A DNA stretch of 64,000 nt, from the NCBI GenBank assembly GCA_017506865.1, contig JAFCMP010000132.1:124001-188000 (forward strand), read 5' to 3'. The translations under genes and the position numbers were made by a program. Every line of letters starts with the position of its first letter. The stretch's first letter is position 1. This document shows, in pieces, positions 14,242 to 49,836 of this stretch. This DNA is from Tribonema minus. Taxonomy: Eukaryota > Sar > Xanthophyceae > Tribonematales > Tribonemataceae. The notes beneath the pieces are model-generated. The model saw nothing but the letters and a program-made list of their open reading frames with translations, searched no databases and was not told the origin of the DNA.

Positions 14242-15717
14242 CGCCTTGAGATGGCGCTTCTGCCTGGTTCTCCTCCTTGAAGTTGAAGTTGTCAAATACA
14301 CTGCACATGTTACTTAGCCTCACCTTTTTGTGTCCTGGTCAAGTGGCAAGTTGAGAAGACGTACATACATACCTGCAACATATCATATGTATGAAACAGG
14401 GGTGTGCTGAACATGCCAGGGTTCTCACCAGCATATATAACATCATCCATACAACACGCAACAATGTAGACACGTGACACATTGACTGATTGGTGTAATG
14501 CCATTATTGGTGGAGAGGCTGAAGGGGAAGACCTGTTCCTAACCCCTGAATGTGGATCCGACCTGAAGGGCCAAGTTCGGCCCGCCATTTCCCCAAAGCC
14601 CCCCCCCCCCTTCTCTCCTCTCTCGCAACCCTCCTCCCCCTACCCTTGACCCAAAAGTCATGGGAGTGGTGGGTGGGTGTTGATTCTACCTGATCTCAAT
14701 CACCTTGGCTGCTTGTTCTCGCCAGTCTACCAGTCAGCGTAAGTGAGGCTCCGGTGGGCCGTAGGCGACGAGTCCCTTGATAATGGATCCTTGAAGACCA
14801 AGCTAATCTTGCCACTTTTGGTTCCCCCCAAAAAAACTCGTCTTTTCAAGCCAAAACATCCCGTCATTTCTTCAATTTCAAGCTTGTTGAACAAAAGTGT
14901 TCTTTCAAGTGGTGTAAAACAAACATACAGCTTGTGACTACGACACTTGGTAACAATCACATTGATACAGCATCACATCACTGCTCACATAGTTCGAGGT
15001 ATTACTGCAACACATTCAGGCAGCTACAGATGAAAATTTTCAATCATGAACCACCACATTGTTGACAAATCACACAACCTTCAAGGCACCAGTTTTATCT
15101 GGTACAAAACAACACACAGCAGCAACGACACATTTGCAAATCAACAAAAGAGGATGGATTCAAGCAATGATAACATGACCTGATGTGTTTGCAGTCTTTG
15201 ATTGATGATGTATGCGAACTACCATAAATATGCACTGGGAGGGAACTAACAGAGTCTGCTGAACCTCTCACACGGATCTATAGGCGGAGCACTTCTATCG
15301 GCGCAGCATCGCGCACAGGCGAACCCCCACTACCGGCCCTAGCCGGAGACACCGCATCTCAAGTGAGCACGGCAGGAGAGCACGAAAACTGCGCAAGGCA
15401 GTTGCCAAACAGGCACCACCACACATTCAACCCCCCTCTCTCCCCCAAACATGTCGTTGCCGGCCCAGCAGTTCTTGCTGGCGCAGTCTATGCCTGCTGC
15501 TCAGAAAGCGTATAGTACATGCGCAGTCGTGTGTATAGTGAAACGATGCTACCGCTGCTGCTGCTCTGCGCACCGTCGCTGCTGACAGAAGCTACAACGC
15601 TGGCGCTGTCTATGCCCCGCAGCGCCACCGTCGCTGTGTTCACCCCCTCAGTGCAGCGCGCGCACACCAGCAGGCTTGCAGCAGCGCTCAGATGGCGCCA
15701 CTCACCCAGCCCTCAGC
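14242..15717. other. Intergenic, AT-richer than the rest, no gene recognised
   Basis: The 5' flank of the Alba gene and 3' flank of the repetitive-protein gene. Positions 14600-15250 are the most AT-rich block in this part. A 77-codon frame on the - strand (14960-14727) has no family resemblance and is overlapped by an open frame on the other strand. A TTGAAGTTGAAGTT motif lies at 14278-14291. Confidence 0.35.
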
Positions 15718-18700
15718 TTAGGGCTTGGCCTCCTCTGCGGCGGCGTCGCCCTCGTCGGCAGCGGCAGGCTCGCCAGTGTCAGCAGCGTCATCGTTGTCGG
15801 CAGCGCCGTCGTCCTTAAGCTCCTTGCCAGTCGAAGGGCGGTCATCGGGCGACGGCTCCTCCCCAGTAGGGTCAATGTGGTGCTTGTGCTTGACGATATC
15901 GTCCGCGGGCGCGCCATCTGCGCCCGGGGACACGGGGATCTCAACGTCGGTCCCTCCCGACTGCCCCTCCTTCCCCTCCTCGATGGTCACCTCGGGGCTG
16001 GGGTGGGGGGTGGGCTCCCTGACGGAGCCCCCCTCCCCCTCCCCCTCGTGCGCCTCACCGTTGGCGTCGCCGCCAGCGGGGGTGGCAGGGGGCGCAGGCG
16101 TCGGCGACGGCGTCTCCCACTCGGTGGGCGCGGGGCCGGACACGCTGCCGCCGACATCCGCGCCGCCGCCGCCGCCGGCGCTCGCGCCGCCGCCGTCTGC
16201 TGGCGCGGCGGGCTCCGGGCACCACCAGATGGTCCAGCAGCCGCCGCCGCCGGCAAAGAAGTTGCTGACCCTGTCGGCCCAGTTGTGGGGCTTGGCGTAG
16301 TCCTCGCCCGCCGCAGCGGCGCCGCCGCCGCCGGCGCCCGCATGCACCTCCGCTGTGCGGCCGTTCGCGCTGACGCTGGCGCTGGCGCGCGCGCCGCCGC
16401 CGCCGCCGCTAGCGCCGCTGCCGTAGTCTGCCGCGTAGTTGTGGCCGGCGGCGGCGCCGCCGCCGCCGCCGCCACTGCCGCCGCTGGGGCCGTAGCTCTG
16501 CGCGCCGTTGCTGCCGCCGGCGGCGGCACCGGCGGCGCCGCCCTGGTACTGCTTGGACGCGACGTCGTACTTCTTGGCGTACTCGTCGCCGCTCTGCCCG
16601 CCGTTGTAGTAGCCGCCGGCGTTCTGCTTGGCGTAGTCGTCGCCGCTCTCGCGGGCGTGCTCACCGGTGCCGGCGGTGTGCGCGTCAAGCTGCATCAGCG
16701 CGGCAACTTCGTCATCGGCATCGGGTGCAGCGGCGGAGGCATCGTCGTCGCCAGCGGCGTCAGTGCCCTTGTGAGCGTGGTGGTGGTGGTGGTGGTTGGA
16801 GTGCTCAGCGGCGTCACCGTTATCGGCCACGTCCGCGTCGTCATGCTGAGCATCGCCATCAGCGTCCTCGTCCGCATCTTCATCGGCGTCCACGTCCGCG
16901 TCAGCGTCCGCATCTTCGTCAGCGTCCGAGTCAGCGTCCGCATCGGCGTCGTGCTGAGCATCGGCATCGTGGTGGGCGTGCGGTCGGTAGTGGCCGGCCC
17001 AGTCAGTGTCGGGGTTGTAGTAGGGCCCCGCGTACTTGTTGGCCCAGTCGTCGCCGCTCTGCCCAGCGGCAGCAGCGCCGCCGTTGTAGTAGGGCCCTGC
17101 GTACTTCTTGGCCCAGTCATCGCCGCTCTCGCCGGGGCCAGCGCGGTAGCCGCCGCCGCCGCCGGCGTGCACTGCGGCTAGCTCAGGCTGAGCATCAGCA
17201 TCAGCGGCAGCGTCTACATCGGCGTCGGCGTCGTCGTGAGGGTGGTCGTGGGCGTGGTGGTGGTGTGTGTGCTCGGGAGCATCCTTGTCGGTTACGTCTG
17301 CGTCTGTTACGTCGGCGTCAGCGGTGGCGTGAGCGCCTGCATGGTGGTGGCACGAGGAGCAACATGTCAGGAAGTTGCTGATAGTATGAGTCATATACTT
17401 AGGATGACATGCGTTGATGGGTCATGCAGGTAAGTGGCACCAGAGCAGTGATGCACAGGCTGATTTGAAATTTGCAGCGGCAATTGTTGCAGCTTTGATT
17501 GGTGACGCATTGTGAACTTGGCAGTTGCAGCACTTCTGTTCGTATGCCTGGTTCACCAGAATGCATGTGCACGAGGGTTAGGATTACTACTTGACGGTCC
17601 GGTGCGCACGTGTAAAAACCTCATAACCTCAGCTTGCCTTTCATGATGACACCTCAAGGAGCTTGGAGGTGCCATGTTGCTTCACAACACTGAGTAGACA
17701 AGGCCAGATTGCTAGCTGTGGTGGAGCGGTGAATTGCATCTTGATGAGCACCTGCAGCAGTGCTCCCACAACGTCCGCAACCTGTACGGCAACCTGACGG
17801 TGCACTGGCTAGCGACATGAGCAAGAGTGCACGGCGCTGCTACATCAAGTTCAACATACTAAGCGCCTCAGCATCGACCCATTCCGCACGCTTCGTTTAG
17901 GTCCCGCTCTCTCTCGCGGTCTCAGTGCAGGGTGTAGTGGCAGCTACATTCCTGATCATGGAAGGTGACACTCACTGGCGCGCATGCGCGCAGGTGCGCA
18001 CGCGCTGCCGACACAACGCGCCGCAACAAAAATGCCATTCATGTACCCTGCTGCTCGCCCATGCACCTCGAATGTCAGACAAGCCGCAGGCACGAGAGCG
18101 CCTTGTTTGGGCAAAACGAAGACGTGCACTTGCATCAATACACCATGGTCGTTTGTAGACCATTGACACCTCCACAAGCTGCTGTCCTAGACGTTGTTTC
18201 AGTCTTGAACTAACTACCGCAAACAACCGCCACATACTCGGTGTTTGACAAGCTTCATGGAACCTAATGCTTACCTGCGCCGCTGCCCGGCGCGTACTGG
18301 TGCCTGTAGTGCTGGTTGATGTCATACTGCTTGACGGCGTAGTCATCCGCAGCAACGTCAGCGTCAGCGCCCCCCTGAGGGTAGTAGGCACCGGCGTACT
18401 GCTTCGCATAGTCATCACCGCTTGCACCGCCATTGTAGTAAGGTCCCGCGTACTTCTTGGCCCAGTCATCGCCACTCTCGCCGGGGCCGGCACGGTAGCC
18501 GCCGCCACCGCCGGCGTGCACTGCCGCCAGCTGAGGCTGAGCATCAGCAGCGCCAGCGTGTGCTGCATCGGCATCAGTGTCCGCATCAGCGGCGTCTTCG
18601 TGGGCGGGGTGGTCTTCGGTGGTGTGGTGGTGGTGGTTGTGGTGAGGAGTGTCCGCAGCGGTTGCGTCGGTTACGTCGGCGTCGGCGCCTGCGCGCATAG

Positions 18701-21700
18701 GAGACGCAGAGATGGTGATGGGGAGCATCAGCCGAATTCAACATGCAGGCGAGTGCCACAGCAAGGCTGCACCATCGGGGAGTGTGCAAGCGGTCAGTGC
18801 CGGCGGTGGCACAGCGCACGTATGTCCTGTTGGAGCGATCGAACTGCATACAACGATGCTCAGCTGCGCCGGGAGCAACTGAAGAAGACATGAGGCGACA
18901 TAGCAATCTTTCGACATTAAATGACCAACATGTACCCGATATGTACAGACCGCCAGCGCATTCACCACAGCTTTAACCACTGCGCGATTTGGGGCAGGTC
19001 TTGAGGTTAATGCAAGACTGATGTGCACAACATCGCCATGATTCTGAACCGTTCTAACGTACTATCAACATAACCTGGTCTTGCCTGCCTGCATGGACGG
19101 GAACATACGCAGGTGGAAGGCTGCCACTGCCTCCATGGAAGCAAACGAGGAAGACAACGGGTCCTGCAAAGACTGTGGGTGACGCTGCTAGCACTTATCA
19201 ACGTCAACACGTACATATGCTCACGTGCCTTCAACCAACCACCCAGTCACCAAGTATGAATCCATATTTCTGCAAGCCGCAACGCAAACAAACACCTGCG
19301 TCGCCGCCAGGCGCGTACTGGTGCCTGTAGTGCTGGTTGATGTCGTACTGCTTGGCTGCGTAGTCATCTGCTGCATCGGCATCAGCACCCCCTTGAGGGT
19401 AGTAGGCGCCGGCGCACTGCTTAGCGTACTCATCGCCACTCGCGCCGCCATTGTAGTACGGTCCTGCGTATTTCTTGGCCCAATCACCGCCGCTCTCCCC
19501 GGGGCTGGCGCGGTAGCCGCCGCCACCGCCAGCGTGCACTGCCGCCAGCTGAGGCTGAGCATCAGCAGCGTCGGCATGTGCGTCATCGGTGTCCGCATCA
19601 GCAACGTCGTCGTGGGCGGGGTGGTCTTCGGTGTGGTGGTGGTGGTGGCTGTGGTGAGGAGTGTCCATGTCGGTTACGTCGGTTACATCTGTGTCGGCGC
19701 CTGCGTGCAGAGGGAAACACAGAGATGGCGATGGGGAGCGTCAGCCATCGTCAACGGTGGAAGGCATTCAATGTGACGGCTAACCATACATTTTCACCTT
19801 TTGATTTGTTTCTATGACACGTGGGTGACTGCCACAGCAAGGCTGCAGCATCAGGAAGAGCGCGAGCGTTTGGTGCAAGCATGTGCCGTCAGAGTGATGA
19901 AACAGCGCACCGTCATGCTCAGCTGCTGCCGGGAGTCAGTGCACAAGTCATGAGACGGCATGGCGTCTTTGAACAGCAAAAAACAAGCATGTACTGGTCA
20001 AGCTGAACGCCAGCGCAATAACCACAGCTTTGGCTTCCGCGCAATTGGGGGCAGGTTATGCAGGACTCGTGTGCACGATAGCGCCATGATTCTGAGCCTT
20101 CCTAATGTGCTATCAACGCAACCTGGTGTCGCCTGCCCGCAACAAATGGACAGCCGCAAGGCGGTACGCTGCACTGCCTCCATCTCAGTAATTGAGGAGG
20201 ACCGCGATCCTGCAAAGACAGCGGGTGAACGCTGCAAGCGATTCTGGACGTCAACACGCACACATACCTACGCGCCTCCAACAAACCACTCTGGCAGCAA
20301 ATATGGATCCATATTGCTGCAAGCCGCATCGCAAATACCTGCATCGCCGCCAGGAGCGTACTGGTGCCTGTAGTGCTCATTGATGTCGTACTGCTTGGCG
20401 GCGTAGTCATCCGCGTCGACATCAGCATCAGTGCCCCCCTGGGGGTAGTAGGCACCGGCGTACTGCTTGGCGTACGCATCGCCGCTTGCACCGCCATTGT
20501 AGTAAGGTCCTGCGTACTTCTTGGCCCAGTCATCGCCGCTCTCGCCGGGGCCAGCGCGGTAGCCGCCGCTGCCGCCGGCGTGCACTGCTGCCAGTTGAGG
20601 CTGAGCATCAGCAGCACCGGCGTGTGCATCGGTGTCCACATCAGCGACATCGTCATGGGCGGGGTGGTCTTCGGTGGTGTGGTGGTGGTGGCTGTGGTGA
20701 GGAGTGTCTTCGTCAGTTGCGTCGGTTACATCGGCACCAGCGCCTGCGTGCATGGGGACGCAGAGATAGTGATGTGGAGCGTCAGCCGTAGTGCGCACGC
20801 GCGCGGGTGCTAAAGTAAGGCTGCAGTATCAGGGAGAGCGAAAGCGGCCGGTGAAGACGGTGGCGCAGCGCACGCATGTAGTTTCGGAGTGATAGAACTG
20901 CACGCTATGATGTTCAGCTGCGCGGGGAGAAACTGCACACTTACGATGTTCAGCTGCACTGGGAGCAGCTGAAGAGGTCACGAGGCGGCATAGCATCTTT
21001 CACCATCAAACGACAAATATGCACTGTACAGGCCAAGCTGCACGGCAGCGCAATTATAACAGCCACAGCTACTGCGCGATTCAGGGCAAGTGTCAATGTG
21101 CTGCAAGGCTGTACCTTCTGCACTACTGATCAAAGCAAGCTGATGTCACCTGCCTGCACTGGATGGACAGACACACAGGTGGAACGCTGCACTGCCTCCG
21201 TATAAGCAAATGGGGAAGACAATGGGCCCTCAAAGACTGTGGGTGGCGCTGCAAGCAGTTCCGGAGGGTGTGCGCGCGTGCACACATGCACGCATGGGCA
21301 TCCATTCAACCACTCCGTCAACAACTACAGAGTCAAGTTGCTGTAAGCCGCACGGCAATCACCTGCATCGCCGCCCGGCGCGTACTGGTGCCTGTAGTGC
21401 TCGTTAATGTCGTACTGCTTGGCGGCGTAGTCATCCGCATCAACATCAACGTCGGCACCCCCCTGAGGGTAGTAGGCGCCGGCGTACTGCTTAGCGTACG
21501 CATCGCCGCTGGCGCCGCCGTTGTAGTAGGGCCCTGCGTACTTCTTGGCCCAGTCGTCGCCGCTCTCGCCGGGGCGAGCGCGGTAGCCGCCGCCGCCGCC
21601 GGCGTGCACTGCTGCCAGCTCAGGCTGAGCATCAGCAGCGTCGGCATCGACTACGTCGGCGTCAGTGTCATCACGAGGGTGGTCGTGGGCGGGGTGGTCT

Positions 21701-24700
21701 TCGGTGGTGTGGTGGTGGTGGCTGTGGTGAGGAGTGTCCTCGTCAGTTACATCGGTTACAGCGGCGTGGGCGCCTGCGTGCAGAGGGAGGTGCAGAGACG
21801 GCAAAGGGGAGCGTCAGCCGTCGCACACGCGGGTGGAACCCAAACAAGGCTGCAGCACCAGGGAAGTGCGCAAGCGGCTGGTGCCGACAGAGGCGCAGCG
21901 CATTGATGTCCCACGAGTGATGGAACTACACAGCGTAAAGCTCCACTGAAGTCAAAGAGTATTGGGGCGACATACCACTGAAGACGTCCAACAAAATGAT
22001 GTACAGGTCAAGCTGAACGCCAGCGCAGTCATCACAGCCACAACCACTGCACGATTTGAAGCAAGTGATGACGTGCTGCAAGATTGGTGTGCACAACAGC
22101 ACCATGAAGTCTGTACCTTCTGCACTACTGGTCAACGCAAGCTGACGTCACCTGCCTGCACTGGATGGACAAACACACAGGTGGTGTGCTGCACCACTGC
22201 CTCTGTACAAGAAGAATGCGAAGACAGTGGGTCCTGCAAAGACTGTGGGGTGGCGCTGCAAGCAATTCCGGAGGGTGTACGCGCGCGCACACATGCACGC
22301 ATTGGCCTCCAACCAACCACCCTGTTAACAAGTACAGAGTCAAATTGCTGCAAGCCGCACGACAATCACCTGCGTCGCCACCCGGCGCGTACTGGTGCCT
22401 GTAGTGCTGGTTGATGTCGTACTGCTTGGCTGCGTAGTCATCTGCTGCATCGGTATCAGCGCCCCCCAGGGGGTAGTAGGCGCCGGCGTACTGCTTAGCG
22501 TACGCATCGCCGCTTGCACCGCCATTGTAGTACGGTCCTGCGTATTTCTTGGCCCAGTCGTCGCCGCTCTCACCACGGCCTGCGCGGTAGCTGCCGCCGC
22601 CGCCGCCGCCGGCGCGCACTGCTGCCAGCTCAGGCTGAGCATCAGCAGCGTCAGCGTCTGCATCGGCGTCGGCGTTGTCGTGAGGGTGGTCGTGGGAGCG
22701 GTGGCTGTGGTGGGCGTGGCTGGGAGTGTCTTTGTCAGTTTCGTCAGTTACGTCCGCATGGGTGTCATCGTCGTCGGCGGCGGCGGTGCCTGCAGCGGAG
22801 ACGAGTTGAAGTTGAAGTTAGCTCAGTGTGCTCGGATGAATGCTTGTTGAGACGGGCATGCGTGAGAGCATGCTCCTGGAGACTTTAATGGCACGCTCGC
22901 GCAAGAAGCCGCAGAGCAGCAGTTGAATTTGCAGGAAGCAGTACAGCGCCGCTAGGTGAAATGCCCGCATGAAACTGTCAAGCGCGTGAAAATGCTGGTA
23001 AGTTTTGAATGGCGCCTTTCATCTAGAGCAGATTGTGACATCAATTTCTGATGTAGTGATGCAGCTGTATGAGGCACAACAAATGCACCGCTTACACTGC
23101 AAGTTGTAAGAACACTGTGATTCTCTTCAGCGAGCTTCCAGCGTCAACAACGGTGCATGACCAGGCAAGAGGTAGGCAGCTGTAACAAAGTCTAGAAGGT
23201 GACAAGCTGCTTGAGCTGACTCTGGCGGTAGAGTGAGCTGAGCCGAAATGCACTGGGGCAGCAGGTCAGACCTCACAACAAAAAGACGGATCAGACACTA
23301 GCGCCAACACAATGCCAGCGCAAGCACGCATGTGTACACAATGTGCGCCCGCGCGTGTCAACACTGATGCCGCCTTTGCGGTAGGGCCGCGATCACTCGT
23401 GTTTGACAAATGCCAACGCTTACGTCAACAGCCGCAGCTGACTGCAGGCGTCCACCCTCAACTTTAACACGGCATGCGCTCTTGCACTAAGGCAACATGG
23501 CGAGCACAGGCACCTTGTTAGACTCTCAAGTATGCTTGCTTTCCAACATGGAACTGTTCTGCGCGGTTCAACCATCAGAAGCACATTACCTGCATCGCCG
23601 CCCGGCGCGTACTGGTGCCTGTAGTGCTGGTTGATGTCGTACTGCTTGGCGGCGTAGTCCTCCGCGTCGACATCAGCATCAGCACCCCCCTGAGGGTAGT
23701 AGGCGCCGGCGTACTCCTTGGCGTACTCATCGCCGCTCGCGCCACCGTTGTAGTAGGGCCCCGCATACTTCTTAGCCCAGTCGTCACCGCTCTCACCGGA
23801 GCGGTAGCCGCCGCCGCCGCCCGCTGCCGCCAGCTCGGCAGGCGCGGCACCAGCGTCGGCGTGATGGTGATGAGGCTCAGCAGCGGCAGCGGCGGCGCCG
23901 TCGCCGCCGCGTTGAACGCCGCTGCCGGCGACGGGCGCGGCGTGCTGCGGCGCGTACTGCTGCCGGTAGTGCTCATTGATGTCGTACTGCTTGGCGGCGT
24001 AGTCATCTGCTGCGTCAGCGTCGGTGTCAGCGCCCCCCTGGGGGTAGTTGGCGCCGGCGTACTGCCGCGCGTAGCCGTCGCCGCTCGCGCCGCCGTTGTA
24101 GTACGGCCCCGCGTACTTGCGCGCCCAGTCGTCGCCGCTCTCGCCGGGACCGGCGGCAGCAGCGCCGCCGCCGCCGCCACCGGCAGCAGCGTGCAGCGCA
24201 GTGGCGTCAGTGGTGATGGGCGCGTGCGCTGCGTCCCTGTTGGCAGCCTCGACCGCCCCCTCGTCTGCCTTGTTCGTCCTGACGTGCAGCTTGGTCTCGG
24301 TGGCGGGGTCGACGGCGGCGGCGGCGGTGGCGGCGGCGTCGCGGTCAGCAGCGCTCGCGCCGGTGGCGGTGTTGGGCGATTCGGGGTTGGTTGCGGTGGC
24401 CTCGTGGTGGTCGGCGTCTGCTGGGGAGCGGGGGGCACCAATTGCGTAGTGGGTTTGAGGGGGGGGTGGGAGGATGGGGGAACGCCGTGGAGCGTGCCGC
24501 GGACGCGCGGCGACTGCGCGGCTTTTGCTCCTGAGCATTGGCCTGTACAGTATTTTCAACGAAGAACACCGTTTGGATGCTAGGGTTCGGCGATTGGCAA
24601 TTGCAGCGGCAGGCTTGGCTGGCTGGCATCACAGTGCTGATAGTGCAGTTTAAGCGCGGCAGATCACCTCAGTCCAGCTAGGCTAGCATTCATTTTTCTT

Positions 24701-27363
24701 TGCGGAAATGCAGAGAGTGATACTGTATCAAGCGACGAGTTGATGGTCGTGAAAGGCCGCGGATCTGCATGGCACTGCGGTACATAGGGGGGAGGAGGAA
24801 GGGGGGGGGGGGGGGGGGGTTGGGGGAAGCCTGGGGAGATCGGGGGGGGGGGGAGAAGGGTGGACTGAACGACATGCGATGCGCTTCACGTACCGATGCA
24901 GCTGCTACGTTAGCTCTTGCGCAAGAATGACGCAGCATAATAACATGATACATCAAGGGCGCCAGCCCTGTCACCGCCAGTGTATCGATCTACCATTGCA
25001 AAACCACATCCAGCAATTAAATACGCCTTCAAGTCCGTGATCGTACGCAAACAGGTGCGCGCCTTCGCCAGCCCGCTTCACTGTTCCGGTTCCTACACCC
25101 ACCATACAACTCAGGCTCTGTTGATTATACTACTACATCAACAAGTCAGCAGGCCACGCACCTTCGACAGCGGGGCTGACAGCGTTGTCGTCGTCATCGT
25201 GCGGGCCGTTCTGTATCTGGCTGCCACGTACACGACCTGTCTTCGGTACTCTACATGCTAGTATCAACATGCGTCTCAGACTTCACTGTGTTGTCCACAC
25301 TATTGTCATCAATGAGTCAGCAGGTCATGCACCTTCAGCGGCGGGGCTGACAGCCTTGTCGTCGTCGTCGTGCGGGCCGTTTTGTATCTGGCCGCCGCCG
25401 TACGCGCCGGCGTAGGCCTCGCCGTAGCTGCCGATGACGGAGTCGCAGCGCGCCTTGGGCGGATTGCCGCCGCGCACGCAGCGGTTGCACAGCGCGCACA
25501 CGCGCAGGTCCATCTTCTGCTTCCTGTTGCGTTCATGCGGGAAGGGGAGGGGGGGGTCAAAGAGGAGAGAGGGCACAGTGTGAGAAGGTGGGGGGGGGGG
25601 GGGGGGGGGGTAGCTTGGAGTGCTGAGGTCAATGAAGGGGGGGGGGGGGGGGCATGCACGCATTGTAGCATGTACAGGAGCTCCGCCGGATTGAGAGCTC
25701 GCATCAGCTTCCGGCACTGCTCTTGCGCAGGAGGCGAAGCAACACTCAGTGCGCAGGAGGCGGCGTGGCGCGGGGGCGCAACTCCTGCTCCACCAATAAT
25801 GACAGCGGTGCGGCAAGCACGAGGAACTGTGAATGGTCGACCCTGCTGCAGGCTGGCGGGCGCGAAGTGGTGCTCAAGTGACGTACATGACTTAAAAATT
25901 GTCAGGACAAGTGGCTGACAATGTAGAGTTGTGTGTAAAAGCCACACAGAGCGCACATGCAGATCATAGTTTGCACCCCGCAGCATTGTCACAAGCACAG
26001 AAATGTTGCAAATTTCGCACTCACTGTGCGAACGGGGAATCAGCAGATGCAGCATTGGGTAGGTGGACATGACACGTTTGCATGCGTGCTTCCTGCCTTT
26101 ACGCTCCGGTGATTGGCAAATCTTTGCCACCAAGACTGACGGCAGACGCAGCAGAGCGAGTGTAGATTGACGGTGTGCTGTCGCCTTACGCTCCAACGTA
26201 CAATGTGACTGACAATCACAGGAATGATGGTGAACCGAGTGCTGACAAAGAATGCAGTCGTCATGTGTCTGCAACGACACGATCCTCACTGCAAGGATGA
26301 CCGTGTCGCTGGCGGTGCCAGATGATGGATTAGGGGCTCAATGCAGCAAGCGGGTGGCCTTCACACTCAGTACAGTGGGTACTACAGAAAAATTATCTAA
26401 CCTACCAACAACCGTCAAAATGCACATGCAATTGCAAGTTGCAGTTGAAAGGGCACTTTTGAATCGAGGGCCTGCTGATCATGGAGTAGTGCCAAAAAGC
26501 ATTGCACAGTGCACTGCTGGCTTACAAGAACTGATCAAACTGACAACATGTGCAGAATGCTCTGGTTTGAGCGAACTTCAACTGAAGATCCAAACTTGAC
26601 CCAGGTTGCACTTGCAGGAATCTTTCTACACGTGAGACTATCAATGCAGCAGTAGCCGAGCCTGAACAGGCAACACCCATTGTGGAGCTAGTAGATTCCT
26701 TTTCCGGCAATGCGAGTACACAGCGCATTCGCTTCAAGCGCTCGCGTGTGTCGCTGGAATCTTCCAAAGATTTGAAATACATGACGCACGATCTAATTGA
26801 CATCGCGCTGCAGTAATACTCAACGTCACGTTGGCTTACCTGTACTGGTCGTCTAAAGCAGGAGGGCCCAAGCAGCTGCCGCCTAGCTTCTTGTCGGACG
26901 CCGCGTCCTCGAGGCACTTGGCAACGGATCGCACGTCAGGGTCCTGAGCGTGCATCATGAACTCTCCCACCACCTTGTTGCAGTAGGTCTGGACGCACAT
27001 CTCCACCTCGCGGTCCTTGCCATCCGTGCCATCATAGTGCCTGTGCTTGTGCTTGTGGGTGCCTGTAGTTGCAGTGCCATCGGCATCATCCAGGGCAGCA
27101 GCTTCCTGCAGAGTCATGTACTGCATGTTGCGGGCGGCGGGCTGGGGTCGCGCAGAGAACACAGTGGCGCATGCTACGAGGAGAGCAACTGCACCAGCTG
27201 CGGCTGCAACCTTGTAGTGCTTGCGCGACCGGAGGGAGGGCCGGTGCAGCTCGAAGTCCTCGTGCACCTCAATGGGCACCGAACCATAGTTGGAAGTGTG
27301 TGCTCCAGCAGAGCCGGCGGGGCTGCCCGCCAGCCCAGCCTCGGTGTCATCTATGGTCCCCAT
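15718..27363 (-). CDS. Giant repetitive Tyr/Asp/His-rich type II membrane or secreted protein
   Basis: Nine exons: 27363-26840, 25523-25333, 24420-23590, 22789-22370, 21773-21363, 20743-20339, 19700-19296, 18688-18275, 17336-15718. All junctions are frame-consistent, giving about 1739 residues. Residues 1-50 are cytosolic-like, 52-70 form one hydrophobic helix (KVAAAAGAVALLVACATVFS) with RSRKHYK before it, so a signal anchor with the rest luminal or outside. A His/Lys tract (HKHKHRHY) and eight Cys (among them CVQTYC and CALCNRC) come next. Exons 3-9 carry repeats: a block with HHHH and TEDHPAHDD, then ESGDDWAKKYAGPYYNGG, SGDAYAKQYAGAYYPQGG and DDYAAKQYDINQHYRHQY. Exon 9 adds degenerate copies, CWTIWWC, and a Pro/Glu/Asp-rich tail. 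I do not recognise the family. Wall, adhesive or metal/mineral-binding roles are guesses from composition. Confidence 0.85.
17337..22789 (-). repeat. Array of about 1.02-kb tandem units, one exon per unit
   Basis: Exons 4-8 of the repetitive-protein gene start at 22789, 21773, 20743, 19700 and 18688, that is every 1012-1043 bp. The similarity is not limited to exons: intron blocks just 5' of each donor on the + strand map (for example 19100-19290, 20130-20335, 21140-21360, 22150-22368) share phrases such as CTGCCTGCACTGGATGGACA, CAAAGACTGTGGGTG and GCAAGCCGCA. The whole exon-plus-intron unit was therefore copied. Exon 9 begins 1352 bp after exon 8 and carries a diverged module. Confidence 0.85.
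25141..25226 (-). repeat. Partial copy of exon 2 of the repetitive-protein gene, with its donor
   Basis: About 85 bp match 25312-25396, the 3' end of exon 2 plus the start of intron 2, with few differences. The copy keeps the coding phrase for QIQNGPHDDD, then AVSPAVE, and a GTGCGT donor. It lies 171 bp downstream on the transcript. No acceptor that keeps both phases is visible, so it is probably a fossil exon end rather than a used exon. Confidence 0.7.
26586..26816 (+). other. Possible + strand exon nested in intron 1 of the repetitive-protein gene
   Basis: An open + frame ends at TAA 26814-26816 and reads through PIVELVDSFSGNAST and KRSRVSLESSKDLKYMTHDL. A plausible acceptor (CTTGCAG) ends at 26617. 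No start codon, upstream exon or family is recognised. It may be chance. Confidence 0.15.
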
Positions 27364-28758
27364 TGCGTAGCAGCAGAGCAAGAGGGGGTGCCTCTCGTGT
27401 CTGCTTTTTGGCGATGCGCGTGGAGAAGCCAACTTCACTTGGGGAGCGTTCCGAGTTTCGGACTTGTCTCTCAGGACCCTGGGCCATCAGTTTGAGAGGG
27501 TTGCAACTGCACTGCACACGTTTCACCAAGAGAATGGCAGTTCTGTGTGGCTGAGATCAACAGGTGTAGCAACGCAATCTGACGCGCATGGGCAACATTG
27601 GGGACGCGCTGCTGCTGCAACCAAGTACTAACTAAGGAAAGCACCCTTCAGGCTGGGGGTACTGAGCGATGCGGCAGCACTGTGTAGGAGTGTCTGAGGC
27701 TCTGAGGAACGTTGCAACACAGCATTAGCATGTAGAAAGTGACCATGTGCGCATAGTCGTAGGTGGTGCACAGCATGAGCATGTTGATGGTGAGGCATGT
27801 GTGTACAATTGTAGGTGGTGGTAACACAAAAGAATACTGAACAGGTCGCAGGACATCAAGATCAGTCACCGTCTTCAAGCATGCATGAGGAGGATGCCCC
27901 CATCGCGATGCACACGTGCAGAATTGAACCACGCATGATGCTGACAGGAGGCGTAGTATATGCCAGTATGTTATTTGTCATTGACTACGATAGAATGAGA
28001 ATGGATTCACGCCATGCCTGCGCAGTCACCGTCTGAATGAGCACAAAGCTCAGCAGGCTGTCGCACAGACTTCACAACATGTAGCACTTCAAGGTACTGG
28101 AATGTGCTTGCCGCAACAGCAGACTGCACATGACCGTTGGACGGCCAGCATACCCCCATCCATCACTGTAGGGTGCGGGAACACACAATAGGGGGCTTCT
28201 TCCCCCTCCCCCTCCCCGTCGCCCCCCCCGACAACGCACATGCCGCCCAGGGGCATGACTCGTTGATTAAGCATTACACTCATACCAGATTGAGCCGTCC
28301 AACATCATTGGAGCAGCTATTGGGCACAGCGGTGTGGCCTGCCTGAGCCCACTGGCAGTGTTCTGACCACTGCAACTTCAAACTTTCCGCGCTCGCCTTG
28401 TTCAGCTTGCGCTGCTGCTGCTGCCGCGCCTAGCCGTGTGATTGCGTCAGCTCCTGTGGCGCAGCCGCATTTGGTATGAGTGACGCGACATTCACTGTTG
28501 GGAGGTCACCGCAGCTGCTCTGCAGCGGTGCTGAGCAGAATCGCTATCGCCGGTGGGCCCGCAGCAGCCCCACAGCTCAGTATTGCAGCGGCAACACATG
28601 TAGCCGTCATTGTGGTCGCCGCTGCCAGCTGCCGCTGCTGCTGCCGCTGTTGCCGCTGCCGCCGCCGGGTTTCACAGCCGGCAGCGCTGCTGCTGCTGCC
28701 GCTGCTGCCGCAGTTGCGCACATCTCTGCTGCCGCTGCCGCCGCGGCACGGCCGCGCC
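27364..28758. other. Intergenic, no gene recognised
   Basis: 5' flank of the repetitive-protein gene and 3' flank of the ankyrin gene. GCTGCCGCTGCTGC-type triplet runs at 28620-28745 lie just 3' of the ankyrin stop. Small ORFs here show no family likeness. Confidence 0.4.
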
Positions 28759-37819: not shown

Positions 37820-39335
37820 ATGTCCGTCAAGGAGCAGGTGAGGCAGCCCGCCGTCGACTTGTTGATCGTCCTGCTTGCCTGTCTTGCCCCCCGTGCATGG
37901 TCATCGATCTTTGCAGCGGCTAGTGCGCTGACGTGCACTCCGTGCTGACCGCCGCAGACTTACATCATGGTCAAGCCCGATGGCGTCATGCGCAGCATCG
38001 TGGGCGAGATCATCAAGCGCTTCGAGACCAAGGGGTGAGTAGATCGCTGACAGCCTCCGTTTTTCAAGTGCGCCAGAAGAAGTGCACAGTGGGACAATGA
38101 AGATACTCTAGTTAGCAATGAAAATGCAACTGCAGCATTGTAAATAGCGTTTTTAAATATATATTGGCATTCCCATGATTGTTTCGAGGTCGACTTCCAT
38201 GAGTGCTATTCGTGGCCAGCAGGAATCTGCTCGGAGCCCACGGTAAGGTCTATCGACACACCATATCGTTCACTCACGCCAGTGTCTGTTCAAAGCCTTT
38301 TCGCAACGACATTTATGCCAGAATGAACGCGCTTTCATTTGTAACCGCTTAAGGCCTGCATGTCATGCGGACTCTCAGCTCCTCAGATTCTACTTTCGAA
38401 GCGTCCCCCATAGCTACATACCGAGGATGTGCTGGCGGTTGACAAAATGTGTACGTGCAATGGTGTCAGGTACAAGCTGGTGGCCCTGAAGATGGCCGTG
38501 CCCTCCCGGGAACACCTGGAGAAGCACTACGAGGACCTCAACGGCCGCCCGTTCTTCGCCGGCCTCATCAACTACATGGTGAGCACACACCGTGGCAGAA
38601 CTGCTGCAGTACATGGACGCAAACGTATGCCGTGCCTGTGGCGTAGCTGCTGCAGTACATGGACGCAAACGTGCGCTGAGCGGCTCGCTGCAAGCTGCAG
38701 CTTCGCGTGGCGTCAGGGTACTCTTGCCCGTGCTAGATGAACATCATTGCCTGTCATCATCAGAGCATGCAAGCTGGCAACCCTGTTCTTGCGGCAGTGC
38801 AGCGGAGCACACAACCTCTAGGTAGTGAAAAGCAGAGAGGCCCCAGACTCTCCGCACCATGTTTCAACGCCACTGTTCAACGACGCGCCTCGGTCAAGTA
38901 AGAAGCCCGCTGCCGCTCCCGAGTGCGCGATTCTGACGCCGTTGGCGCACTGTGGTCCAACGCTACTGTACTTACTGTTCAAGAAACCGCCTCAGTCAAC
39001 AAAACAGGCCCACTACTGCCGCTCCCCAATGCGCGACTCTGAAAAGCCATCGGCCCATCTACCCCCCCCCCCCGCTGCAGGCCAGCGGCCCCGTCGTCTG
39101 CATGGTCTGGGAGGGGCGCAACGTCGTGCTGGAGGGGCGCAAGATGCTGGGCGCGACCAAGCCCTCGGAGTCAGCGCTCGGCACCATCCGCGGCGACTTC
39201 TGCATCGACGTCGGGCGCAACGTGTGCCACGGCTCCGACGCCGTGGAGTCCGCGCAGAAGGAGATTGCGCTGTGGTTCCCCGAGGGCCTGTGCGAGTACG
39301 AGAAGCCCACCGTCAGCTGGGTGTACGAGAACTAG
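37820..39335 (+). CDS. NDK: Nucleoside diphosphate kinase
   Basis: Exons 37820-37837, 37958-38034, 38470-38578 and 39081-39335 join in phase to 152 residues, the usual length of a group I NDK. The first coding exon is only 18 nt (MSVKEQ). [19 protein letters not shown] gives the nucleotide-site start, [12 protein letters not shown] the active-site loop with the phosphorylated His, and [12 protein letters not shown] the C-terminus. The enzyme moves the terminal phosphate from ATP to other NDPs through phospho-His, keeping NTP pools balanced; without a targeting extension it is probably cytosolic. Intron 3 ends in a run of 12 C before CTGCAG. The exon 3-exon 4 boundary corresponds to NYM/ASGP, as expected for the family. 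Confidence 0.96.
38596..38690 (+). repeat. Short tandem duplication in NDK intron 3
   Basis: The phrase CTGCTGCAGTACATGGACGC followed by AAACGT occurs at about 38601 and again at about 38649, 48 bp apart, just downstream of exon 3. Confidence 0.75.
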
Positions 39336-46467: not shown

Positions 46468-48171
46468 TTATCTGCTCATCTCCGCCTTCCAGATGTCCCC
46501 CCGGCCTGCCTCCTTGGACAAGCGCGCGCCGTCGTCGCGCATGATCGCGGTGACCGCCTGTGCGATCTCGTCCTGCTTGGGATTCGAACGGCCCGTGTAG
46601 ATGTACATGACCGCCGGCGGCGGCGCGCGGCGCAGGTCCCGCGCTGCCGCTCGCGCCGCCGTGGAGGCCACCCCCACATCGCAGCCGCTGAGGTCCAGCG
46701 CCGAGGCGAGCGGATGCCGCAGCAGGGAAAGCTGATCGACGTCCACGACTAACGTATTGCTGCCGCGAAACGTCCACATGGCCTTGTACAGGGAGAGGGC
46801 GCCCGCCGCCTCCGCGTCGCGCCACAGCGCGTCCGCCGCGCCCGCATCCCCCGCCTCGTGCGCCGTCTCCACCGCCAGGTGCCACGCCGACGCCGTCGGT
46901 GCGAGGCCCATGGACAACGCGCGCCGCAGCCAGCGCTCCGCGCGCTGCGCGTCGCGCGCGCGCCTGCACCCACGCATCATGGCCTTGACCATGGTCGGCT
47001 CGGCGTCGCCGCTCGCGGCCGCGGCCTCGAACGCGTTCTCCGCGTGCTGCAGGTGCCCGCCCATCGCGTAGCCGCGGACGACGCGGTAGCGGCACTCAGC
47101 CGTCAGTGGCACGCCTGCGGCGCGCATGCCCGCCGTGAGCGCCTCCACCTTGGCGTCGTCGGCGAGGAGCGCGTACGCGCCTAGAAGTTGTGCGTAAGTA
47201 TCCGCGTTGAGATCGAGACCGCGCTCCACCATCTCCGCGGCCTTCGCCACCGCGCGCTCCGGTTCGTTTGAATAAACGAGCACAGCCAGCAGCCGGTTCC
47301 ACGCGTCCACGGTGAGCAGGTGGGGGTGCGTGGCCTCTGTCTCGGCGAAGAGGTCAAGCGCGCGCTGCCAGCTGCGCGAGTGTCCGAAAGTCAGGAGCGC
47401 TGCACCAAATGTGTCTTCGTCGTGTGTTAACCCTGCATCCGCCATTTCCTGCAGCAGCTGGTTAACTTTCTGCGCGCTTTGCGCGCCGCCGCCGCAGGCA
47501 CGGAGGGCGTAGGTGTATGCTCTGCTGTCGGGCGGCGTGCCGCTCCGCCTCAGAAGTGACATCACGTTCAGCGCAGCGGGCATGGCCTTCGCGGCGCTCA
47601 AAGCCTCCAGGACGATATGAAACACCCTGATGTCGGGCCGGTGCCCTTGCTGGACGATCATCTGACGAAGAGCCAATACCGCCGCATTCACTCTGCCCTT
47701 TACGACCAGTGCTTGTACACGGGCCTCCGTCAAGGGTCGTTCTCTGATGCTGCTGTGGCTGCAACTACCACTGATGCTGCCACCTGCACCGATGCTGCCA
47801 CTGCTGCTGCTTTTGCCACCTCCATCACTGCGCTCCCTGCCTCGCTGCCCTTTACGCGCTGTTCTGCTTGTTTGAGGCGCAGGTGCTGTCCCTGATGCAG
47901 CAGGGCGACCTTGGCTGCCTGCAGTAGCCTCGCAGGCCACCATGGCGCTGTCAGGGACTTTTGTGGTGTGCCTTCGGCCAACAAATACCTCGAGCGTGCC
48001 GCGACTGATGCCAGGCAGCATATGGCCATTGCGCATGCTTGAGATCCTGGAAGAGCGCTGCAGCATTGTGTGCCAATGACGCGGACGCAGCGACTGCCAG
48101 GCAACACTCCCAGCACAGAGCTGCGGGTGTTGTTTGAACGCAAGCCATCCTCGCCGCCACATGCTCAACAT
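46468..48171 (-). CDS. Pentatricopeptide repeat protein with C-terminal SMR-like domain
   Basis: One uninterrupted exon of 567 codons from ATG 48171, in contrast to its intron-rich neighbours. The first 50 residues are rich in Arg, Trp, Ser and His with no acidic residue, as in mitochondrial presequences. A Ser/Gly-rich linker follows (100-145). About eight 35-residue PPR motifs span roughly 177-455, for example GTPPDSRAYTYALRACGGGA, LLTVDAWNRLLAVLVYSNEP, LDLNADTYAQLLGAYALLAD and APTASAWHLAVETAHEAGDA. Residues 470-567 resemble an SMR domain (LDLSGCDVGVASTAARAAAR, YIYTGRSN). PPR proteins bind organellar RNA in a base-specific way; PPR-SMR members act in organelle RNA processing, translation or genome upkeep. 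The SMR part is divergent: LDLSGCD stands for the usual LDLHGxS, so nuclease activity is doubtful. Target organelle inferred from the N-terminus only. Confidence 0.88.
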   Translation of the reverse strand: MLSMWRRGWLAFKQHPQLCAGSVAWQSLRPRHWHTMLQRSSRISSMRNGHMLPGISRGTLEVFVGRRHTTKVPDSAMVACEATAGSQGRPAASGTAPAPQTSRTARKGQRGRERSDGGGKSSSSGSIGAGGSISGSCSHSSIRERPLTEARVQALVVKGRVNAAVLALRQMIVQQGHRPDIRVFHIVLEALSAAKAMPAALNVMSLLRRSGTPPDSRAYTYALRACGGGAQSAQKVNQLLQEMADAGLTHDEDTFGAALLTFGHSRSWQRALDLFAETEATHPHLLTVDAWNRLLAVLVYSNEPERAVAKAAEMVERGLDLNADTYAQLLGAYALLADDAKVEALTAGMRAAGVPLTAECRYRVVRGYAMGGHLQHAENAFEAAAASGDAEPTMVKAMMRGCRRARDAQRAERWLRRALSMGLAPTASAWHLAVETAHEAGDAGAADALWRDAEAAGALSLYKAMWTFRGSNTLVVDVDQLSLLRHPLASALDLSGCDVGVASTAARAAARDLRRAPPPAVMYIYTGRSNPKQDEIAQAVTAIMRDDGARLSKEAGRGDIWKAEMSR

Positions 48172-49836
48172 CGTATGTAGATGATTCGATCAGGGCAGAA
48201 GTTGAAGTTCGATCAGGGGAGAAGTTGAAGTTCAAGGCCGAAGTTAAGCTTGTGGAAAAGTGTACAATCGGGTGTCCTCCACAGGAAACTGCTCAGTTTA
48301 CTGTGCATGCAAACGAAACGAGCACCGGATTGGCGAACAAAGCTTGGATGCAGCAATCAGCGGGGGCTCCACCAGCACCAGCTCTGATCACAGAAGCCTC
48401 GTAGACTTGCGCCGGCGTCTCGTTCTGTTTGGCACTGGTGCTTTGCATGTCATACTCTATTTTGCATGATGTTTGCCAACTGATCGCTCATTGTTTAAAA
48501 AAATAATTAAAGTTGGTGATACAACACACGGTGTACGATGCGTGGGACAGCTACGGGAGGGCCTTGTTGTGACTCACCTGACAGCTAAAACGCAAATGTT
48601 TTCGCAATCGTTCGATGGCGGCAGTGCCGCGGCATGGCATGAGCACATCAAATAGGCAAACATCTGCAACCATCGCCACAGGCTTCTTGTTGTTGAGACA
48701 ATTGATTTGAACAAATCGCCCCCACGCAATGTTGTAGCAGAACCGCTGCGTGCCCGCAATGAGATGCCTGCTGCGCTGCATGAGCGCGACAGTTGAGGCA
48801 AGCCCTCGACAAGAGCAGCGCATTTGCGCATTCGATCATGACCACGGGCGCGACGGGGCAGGAACCGAAAAAATCAGCAGCATCTTTGCCACTTCATTGT
48901 GCGAGCAGGAGCTTGCAGATCCCTAGGTCGCAACGCGAATCAGCGCGCGCGTGACAGATCATTGGACGTGTGGTGATCAATGAGGGGCAACGCCGCGAGC
49001 GCAGCCATTGCGTCATGTTGATGGCGCACAGGGCGCTGCGCTGCTCAACGTCGCCCCGCCAGCGCCTCCCGCGCCTGCGGGGAGGCTCCTCTGAATCATG
49101 ATTTACGCCATGCAACACAGCCGGTGAGCGGGCCAGCTCGTCACAGCGGTTTGCGGCGCGCAGCAGGGCTGCAATTGGGTCATTTTACGGTGAGATGATC
49201 ATTATGTGCGCGATCAGGCGTGCTGAATGACTGAATCAGGGCCACCACAAGATCTGCAGCACGCGCCTGCTTTTGTTGCACTGCAGAGTTCACCTTGTGT
49301 CCGATCGTCAATTCCCCAGTTGTCATGTCCAGTGGCGCTTCAGTCGATCCAGCAGGGACACGTGACGTTTGCCCCTCTCGCGGTGCCTGCTGTTCTCGGT
49401 AGAGCCACGTTGCAGCTGCCCAACGCGCATCCACTCTTGCTTTGCTGGAGCAGGAACGCTGCAAGTGTGTGATTGCATATCTCGGTGTGCCAGGGCCCAC
49501 CCCACGCGTGATAGCTAGTCCAGATTGCGGAGTGCCCGCGCCTGAGCCGCTGTTGCCACTGCGCTCGCGCTGCCAGCAGCGGTGCGCACCAGTCACGGCC
49601 TGCTGCCGCTGCCACTTCTGCTGCTGCCAATGCTGGCGCCGCCGTGAGCAGCGCTGGCCTCAAGCTGTGCCGTGATCTCTGCCGCATTCGCTGTCTCTCT
49701 CGCGCATGCCATCTGCGCGCCTCTAGTCCAATAGGGTTTTCGCTCTCTCGCGCGCCGCCTGCGCGTGTGCGCGCGCGCGTGTGTGTGTGTGTATGTGCGT
49801 GTGCAAGCAGCACGCGGGGTGCGCGGCCCGCCGCCC
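48172..49836. other. Intergenic, no gene recognised
   Basis: It starts with the PPR-SMR 5' flank, which has a 23-bp near-tandem repeat (GATCAGGGxAGAAGTTGAAG, at 48188 and 48211). The rest is mid-GC sequence. A GT/GC-rich simple run lies at 49765-49805. Confidence 0.4.

Follow-up and report, generated by a model that had tools for sequence, protein, structure and literature searches.

Several biological materials that are hard, adhesive or phase-separating are based on repetitive proteins rich in Tyr and His. Calcium binding by mammalian HRC is of low affinity and high capacity, and the linker motif of the EPYC1 type is [DN]W[RK]xx[LIVA]. In the available part of its description, HRC is built of repeats that are 29 residues long and contain HRHRGH and 10-11 acidic residues (PMC6171002), and the histidine-rich beak proteins (HBPs) of squid are described, likewise in partial text, as starting phase separation through His deprotonation and Tyr hydrogen bonding, with stabilisation by Tyr clusters (PMC6884462). 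According to excerpts of the respective sources, homotypic condensation of PYCO1, a diatom pyrenoid linker, is driven by repeated Tyr and Trp motifs (PMC10288592), and some members of the extensins carry a Tyr-X-Tyr cross-linking motif (PMC4769139).

The gene analysed here plausibly encodes a protein of the Tyr/His-rich repetitive structural kind. It lies on the minus strand, from 27363 to 15718, of the window, by which we mean the whole 64,000-nucleotide stretch of Tribonema minus DNA that was analysed. From roles assigned to its parts on the basis of sequence, we tentatively propose, with a probability of roughly 0.45, that the product would be a disordered polymer of stickers and spacers, held in a membrane by a type II anchor, that forms a network at a surface or in a lumen. 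Translation of nine exons joined across eight GT-AG introns gave 1738 residues and a single terminal stop. The nine frame-consistent exons of the initial annotation were thereby upheld, while its length of 1739 was found to include the stop. Intron 1 is in phase 2 and introns 2-8 are in phase 1. The features of the gene are as follows.

Exon 1, 26840-27363, minus strand: start codon, 50-residue N-terminal tail, hydrophobic helix (52-70) and His-rich stretch.
Exon 2, 25333-25523, minus strand: last four head Cys (184, 187, 190, 201; CALCNRC) and a short Tyr/Gly stretch.
Candidate optional exon 2b, 25162-25236, minus strand: 75 nt, in-frame, phase 1-1, copy of the exon 2 end.
Exon 3, 23590-24417, minus strand: Ala/Asp-rich lead-in followed by Tyr modules M1 and M2, both complete and not separated by an intron.
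Exon 4, 22370-22789, minus strand: His/Asp block and Tyr module M3.
Exon 5, 21363-21773, minus strand: His/Asp block and Tyr module M4.
Exon 6, 20339-20743, minus strand: His/Asp block and Tyr module M5.
Exon 7, 19296-19700, minus strand: His/Asp block and Tyr module M6.
Exon 8, 18275-18688, minus strand: His/Asp block and Tyr module M7.
Exon 9, 15718-17336, minus strand: His/Asp block, four sub-repeat units that make up no complete module, and stop.

The protein begins with a tail (residues 1-50) ending in RSRKHYKV, and the 19 residues of highest hydropathy are 52-70, with a mean Kyte-Doolittle value of 2.22 and RSRKHYK on their N side. Since these positive charges lie N-terminal to the helix, it was read as a type II signal anchor, and a single-pass topology of this type is likely; by hydropathy, one N-terminal hydrophobic helix with a positive N side was found, its orientation being presumed. 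This agrees with the membrane helix predicted in the initial annotation, as do the eight Cys that were said to follow it, the first four of which (123, 128, 150, 164) are encoded by exon 1. All eight lie in a head spanning residues 123-201, which includes CALCNRC and two overlapping CxxC motifs, and four Cys outside this set occur at 65, 1022, 1566 and 1572. The N-x-S/T sequon was found nowhere in the 1738 residues of this presumably secretory protein.

Exon 1 ends at the splice donor GTAAGC and has a weak codon-usage signal (0.11 bits per codon in frame), and exon 2 scored 0.65 bits per codon in frame; the other two frames were negative for both exons, and the maximum over 37 windows of intron 1 was -0.09. 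These two exons lack copies against which they could be compared; they are supported by frame, splice sites and codon usage, which are also all that joins them to the rest, and the join of exon 1 could be wrong. Exons 1-2, which encode the head, and exons 3-9, which encode the repeats, might belong to two genes, with the repeat protein starting elsewhere, a reading suggested by the absence of copies for a selection test, by the weak signal of exon 1 and by the length of introns 1 and 2 (1316 and 915 nt). Against it, exons 1, 2 and 3 are joined without a stop by splice sites and frame, coding signal in exons 1 and 2 is confined to the correct frame, and the Tyr/Gly stretch at the end of exon 2 (SYGEAYAGAYGGG) resembles the repeats; we hold a division into two genes to be quite improbable. 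Within intron 2, the candidate at 25162-25236 forms direct repeat D11 with the end of exon 2 at a spacing of 171 nt, has the acceptor GACAG and the donor GTGCGT, and matched exon 2 by tblastn at 73% over 26 residues (E 1.4e-5). It is a possible optional tenth exon or a duplication in progress. Long poly-G tracts were also observed on the plus strand, at 24800-24855 in intron 2 and at 25590-25652 in intron 1.

The modules run from residue 331 to about 1470, and the three kinds of sub-repeat quoted in the initial annotation were all recovered from the protein. Eighteen units of the SGDDWAKKYAGPYY and SGDAYAKQYAGAYY kinds scored 38-49 against a threshold of 12.2, which is the 99th percentile of maxima from 300 shuffled proteins, using a matrix that was seeded from this same protein and so counts units but proves none. 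Seven units of the third kind (DDYAAKQYDINQHYRHQY) were located by matching the pattern DYAxKQYDINxHYRxQYAP. Residues 331-1470 hold 95 of the 108 Tyr of the protein, in which 16 YY pairs occur, and successive Tyr/Trp gaps in this region measure four residues in 38 of 104 cases, the commonest spacing, and one residue in 16 of 104; a four-residue spacing would align the aromatics along a single helix face. The four units in exon 9 are of the first two kinds, and this exon further encodes a 115-residue Asp/His-rich block, a Gly-rich stretch, CWTIWWC and an acidic tail rich in Pro, Glu and Asp.

The gene has grown through tandem duplication of a unit made up of one exon and its intron, the exon being flanked by phase-1 introns. 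The duplicated unit of ~1.0 kb consists of an exon of 405-420 nt (exons 4-8) and an intron of 596-638 nt (introns 4-7), and a 288-nt repeat family recurs in seven copies at spacings of 1349, 1018, 1046, 1024, 1004 and 1223 nt. Since introns 2-8 are all in phase 1, duplication of any one of exons 3-8 leaves the frame intact. Exons 4-8 are 82-88% identical in nucleotide sequence, and the gaps in their alignment all have lengths divisible by three, whereas introns 4-7 are 68-77% identical and 71 of their 82 pairwise gaps are not multiples of three. Introns 3 and 8, compared with the other introns and with each other, gave only 41-47%, which was taken as background. The synonymous distances of the modules depart from gene order, exons 4 and 7 being the closest (dS 0.28; 18275-22789), and this closeness hints at unequal exchange or gene conversion among the exon copies.

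Over all 21 pairs of the seven complete Tyr modules (ESG...QYAP), pooled pS was 0.447 and pN 0.044, giving a pN/pS of 0.099, with single pairs ranging from 0.018 to 0.127. Counted by codon position (1, 2, 3), the differences between pairs of modules were 24, 45 and 238 over their first 37 codons (238 of 307 at position 3) and 18, 6 and 60 over their last 20. A pN/pS of 0.10, together with exon indels that occur only in triplets and intron indels that are mostly non-triplet, indicates that the modules are translated and selected. A chance or non-coding repeat was ruled out by pN/pS, the triplet-only exon indels and the codon-position bias. The claim that this is a real gene with a Cys-rich head and Tyr/Asp/His modules was borne out, and the selection test puts it on firmer ground than the initial annotation could.

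No named family had been recognised for this protein in the initial annotation, and none was matched in the Pfam, NCBIfam and PDB collections that we searched. With all nine exons as queries, Pfam returned nothing above the gathering cut-off, the sole row being baeRF_family6 (E 0.25; 12.1 bits against 27.5), and NCBIfam, searched with exons 1, 3, 6 and 9, returned nothing above the curated cut-off and three rows (E 0.023-0.23) far below it. A search of PDB sequences with the head returned two rows, at E 0.37 and 0.62, and one with exon 6 returned no row up to an E value of 5. The module and the head were also compared with GTDB and IMG/VR contigs, collections in which a eukaryotic gene would not be expected to have relatives, and 266, 66, 51, 2 and 78 short-pattern matches were obtained, none of which was confirmed. 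Prokaryotic or viral relatives were rejected for these module and head queries, no pattern match in the GTDB or IMG/VR contigs having been confirmed. The literature searches returned analogues only, and the sole article matching the motif strings (PMC11935050), in which one string occurs once, was judged from the title and the opening lines of the abstract to be unrelated.

Tblastn against the window with the low-complexity filter on placed none of 103 pieces outside 15600-27500. Unfiltered, it placed 61 of 70 pieces in exons, two in the gene outside the exons, namely exon 2b (E 1.4e-5) and a piece on the other strand (E 0.61), and seven outside the gene, all with E values of 1.7 or weaker; no convincing further copy was found in the window. 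The multi-intron genes of the window mark it as eukaryotic. The flanking open reading frames match NDK, PPR, ankyrin and PDZ models, to which a pooled scan added Tub, TBCC and the Dicty_CAR receptor. The NDK gene (37820-39335, plus strand, several exons) had its best PDB matches in 5bxi and 4o0n, both of which we take to be from Toxoplasma, and scored 225.5 bits to 5bxi and 208.4 bits to 1u8w, presumably the Arabidopsis protein. An open reading frame of 573 residues at 46471-48189 on the minus strand carries PPR repeats (its only Pfam models being PPR), and by eye we take its C-terminal part to resemble an SMR domain. No TGTAA, by which polyadenylation is usually signalled in core chlorophytes, was found in the 700 nt downstream of three stop codons, one of them perhaps not a true gene end, and Rfam and tRNA scans of the window returned nothing.

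In composition, the protein holds 117 His (6.7%) and 235 Asp, with 17.8% acidic residues and 36 HxH matches. Together with the two overlapping CxxC of the head, these features are consistent with a luminal store in the ER, a vacuole or an acidocalcisome, in which the His/Asp blocks would buffer Ca, Zn or Cu and the Tyr parts would serve as linkers or partner contacts. HRC, which in the available part of its source is a large luminal protein with His-rich/acidic tandem repeats and a CxxC-type Cys cluster (PMC6171002), makes this the strongest alternative, because it combines such repeats with a Cys cluster. HRC is, however, more than 30% acidic and 13% His according to that text (PMC6171002), and neither HRHRGH nor an acidic run of eight or more residues occurs in the present protein. 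Constraint also falls more tightly on the Tyr modules than on the His/Asp blocks, the six copies of which (exons 4-9) gave a pooled pS of 0.355, pN of 0.115 and pN/pS of 0.32, a contrast drawn between different copy sets and in which the gappy His/Asp alignment can inflate pN. This difference (0.10 against 0.32) speaks for a function specific to Tyr/Trp more than for one in bulk binding of metal; a metal store of the HRC kind appears unlikely. The Tyr part has the look of a core held under constraint, and in the His/Asp part, which resembles a spacer, composition seems to be what is retained. The matrix, adhesive or mineral-associated role suggested in the initial annotation still stands as an argument from composition; the results that bear on it are the tighter constraint on the Tyr modules and the prevalence of the four-residue aromatic spacing.

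In the anchored sticker-and-spacer polymer that we prefer, the long non-cytosolic part of a single-pass type II protein would be a disordered chain. The short Tyr/Trp sub-repeats (SGDDWAKKYAGPYY, SGDAYAKQYAGAYY, DDYAAKQYDINQHYRHQY) would act as stickers through mutual aromatic stacking and hydrogen bonds, and the acidic Ala/Asp/His/Gly blocks as spacers whose charge may respond to pH and to divalent metal. The Cys-rich head would form a small base beside the membrane, stabilised by disulphide or metal. Many chains abreast could then make a membrane-attached gel or condensate layer that sets on a change of pH or metal, whether at the cell surface, as a wall precursor or in the lumen of a secretory or storage compartment, and phase-1 exon duplication would yield a longer polymer. 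The analysis shows the module architecture, the selection on the modules, the hydrophobic stretch and the lack of a confidently predicted fold, and from these features topology, location, disorder, self-association and the response to metal or pH are all inferred. AlphaFold gave a mean pLDDT of 46.7 for exon 1 (single sequence, with half of the head Cys absent) and of 45.3 for the exon 6 module (five paralogous rows), with no residue reaching 70 in either case and with helices at the aromatic places of the module; at such alignment depths (one and five rows), values this low offer weak evidence for disorder. The whole chain has a pI of 4.5 and a mass of 177 kDa, and the charge of the repeat region is about -154 at pH 7, which would oppose self-association unless neutralised. 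Protons, divalent metal or a cationic partner are therefore probably needed for the chains to associate. Precedents for assembly of this kind are the phase separation of the squid HBPs and the condensation of PYCO1.

A related explanation is that the chain, once cut loose from the anchor, hardens through dityrosine or Dopa chemistry into a wall or adhesive, by analogy with what has been proposed for coccidian oocyst and sporocyst walls. The 108 Tyr and 16 YY pairs would suit such a precursor, and the available text on the Tyr-rich wall proteins of Eimeria describes them as intrinsically disordered, with UV autofluorescence indicating possible dityrosine (PMC4776368). The protein, however, has no YXY and neither a KR nor an RR pair at which a furin-like cut could be made, and cross-linking is not readable from a sequence. 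Tyr-rich diatom proteins, moreover, occur in a species reported, in the part of the source available, to be without Dopa (PMC4220933). A cross-linked precursor is compatible with the self-association step of the preferred polymer, and sequence cannot separate the two; as an explanation in its own right it seems doubtful.

A further possibility is a role in the pyrenoid, as a linker or tether that would bind Rubisco through DDWAKKY stickers. The chain has a repeated Trp-containing motif and no predicted fold, as in PYCO1 within the text available (PMC10288592). Yet [DN]W[RK]xx[LIVA], KWSP and GTGYNP gave 0 matches, the chain is strongly acidic, and the hydrophobic helix begins about 50 residues in, which would be unlike a transit peptide; such a role is very improbable.

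Comparison with the described systems brings out likenesses and differences, the motif tests among them bearing on membership of a family and not on analogy. The protein shares with HRC, as partially described, tandem His/acidic repeats, a similar size and perhaps a CxxC-type Cys cluster (PMC6171002). Its Tyr modules nevertheless dominate the protein, and it lacks HRHRGH and any long acidic run. According to the same partial source, HRC has 14 Cys at the C terminus and a 27-residue signal sequence (PMC6171002), in contrast to the eight head Cys on the N side and the anchor-like helix found here. PYCO1 resembles it as a low-complexity chain with repeated Tyr and Trp motifs in the excerpt available (PMC10288592), and it differs from PYCO1 in having no KWSP, GTGYNP or sign of plastid targeting.

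AC3362 and others of Amphora coffeaeformis are, in the available text, modular and Tyr-rich, with one at the cell surface (PMC4220933). They are set apart by their description in the same partial source, having signal peptides and, for three of them, a stated lack of transmembrane helices, and AC3362 is described as having Lys/Tyr-rich domains (PMC4220933). The extensins are similarly repetitive, Tyr-containing and extracellular, but their motifs, as defined in the excerpt of PMC4769139, were not found in the repeat protein (0 SPPP, hence 0 SP3+, and 0 YXY). GAM56, GAM82 and EtSWP1 of Eimeria are alike in their reported intrinsic disorder and in the concentration of Tyr in a single region, as far as the partial text goes (PMC4776368). 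By the same description their Tyr regions are rich in Ser or Lys (PMC4776368); those of the present protein are rich in Ala, Asp and Gly.

The squid HBPs are likewise repetitive and of low complexity, with Tyr and ionisable His, in the part of the source available (PMC6884462). The repeat protein contains none of their GHGLY-type repeats (0 GHG, 0 G[HA]GxY) and differs from them in keeping His and Tyr in separate cassettes, in its acidic chain and in its hydrophobic anchor. With candidate stickers and spacers in distinct and differently constrained cassettes, and with a countable series of exons, the gene would offer a natural system in which control of assembly by repeat number and by pH or metal could be tested, to an extent that depends on where the protein is located and on what relatives it has. 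It might, although we consider this rather unlikely, represent an undescribed family of membrane-tethered structural polymers made by exon duplication, with Tyr/Trp stickers on a helix face (i, i+4, i+8, i+9) and a His/Asp metal or pH switch, which would be an independent counterpart to the Tyr-rich proteins of squid beak and coccidian walls.
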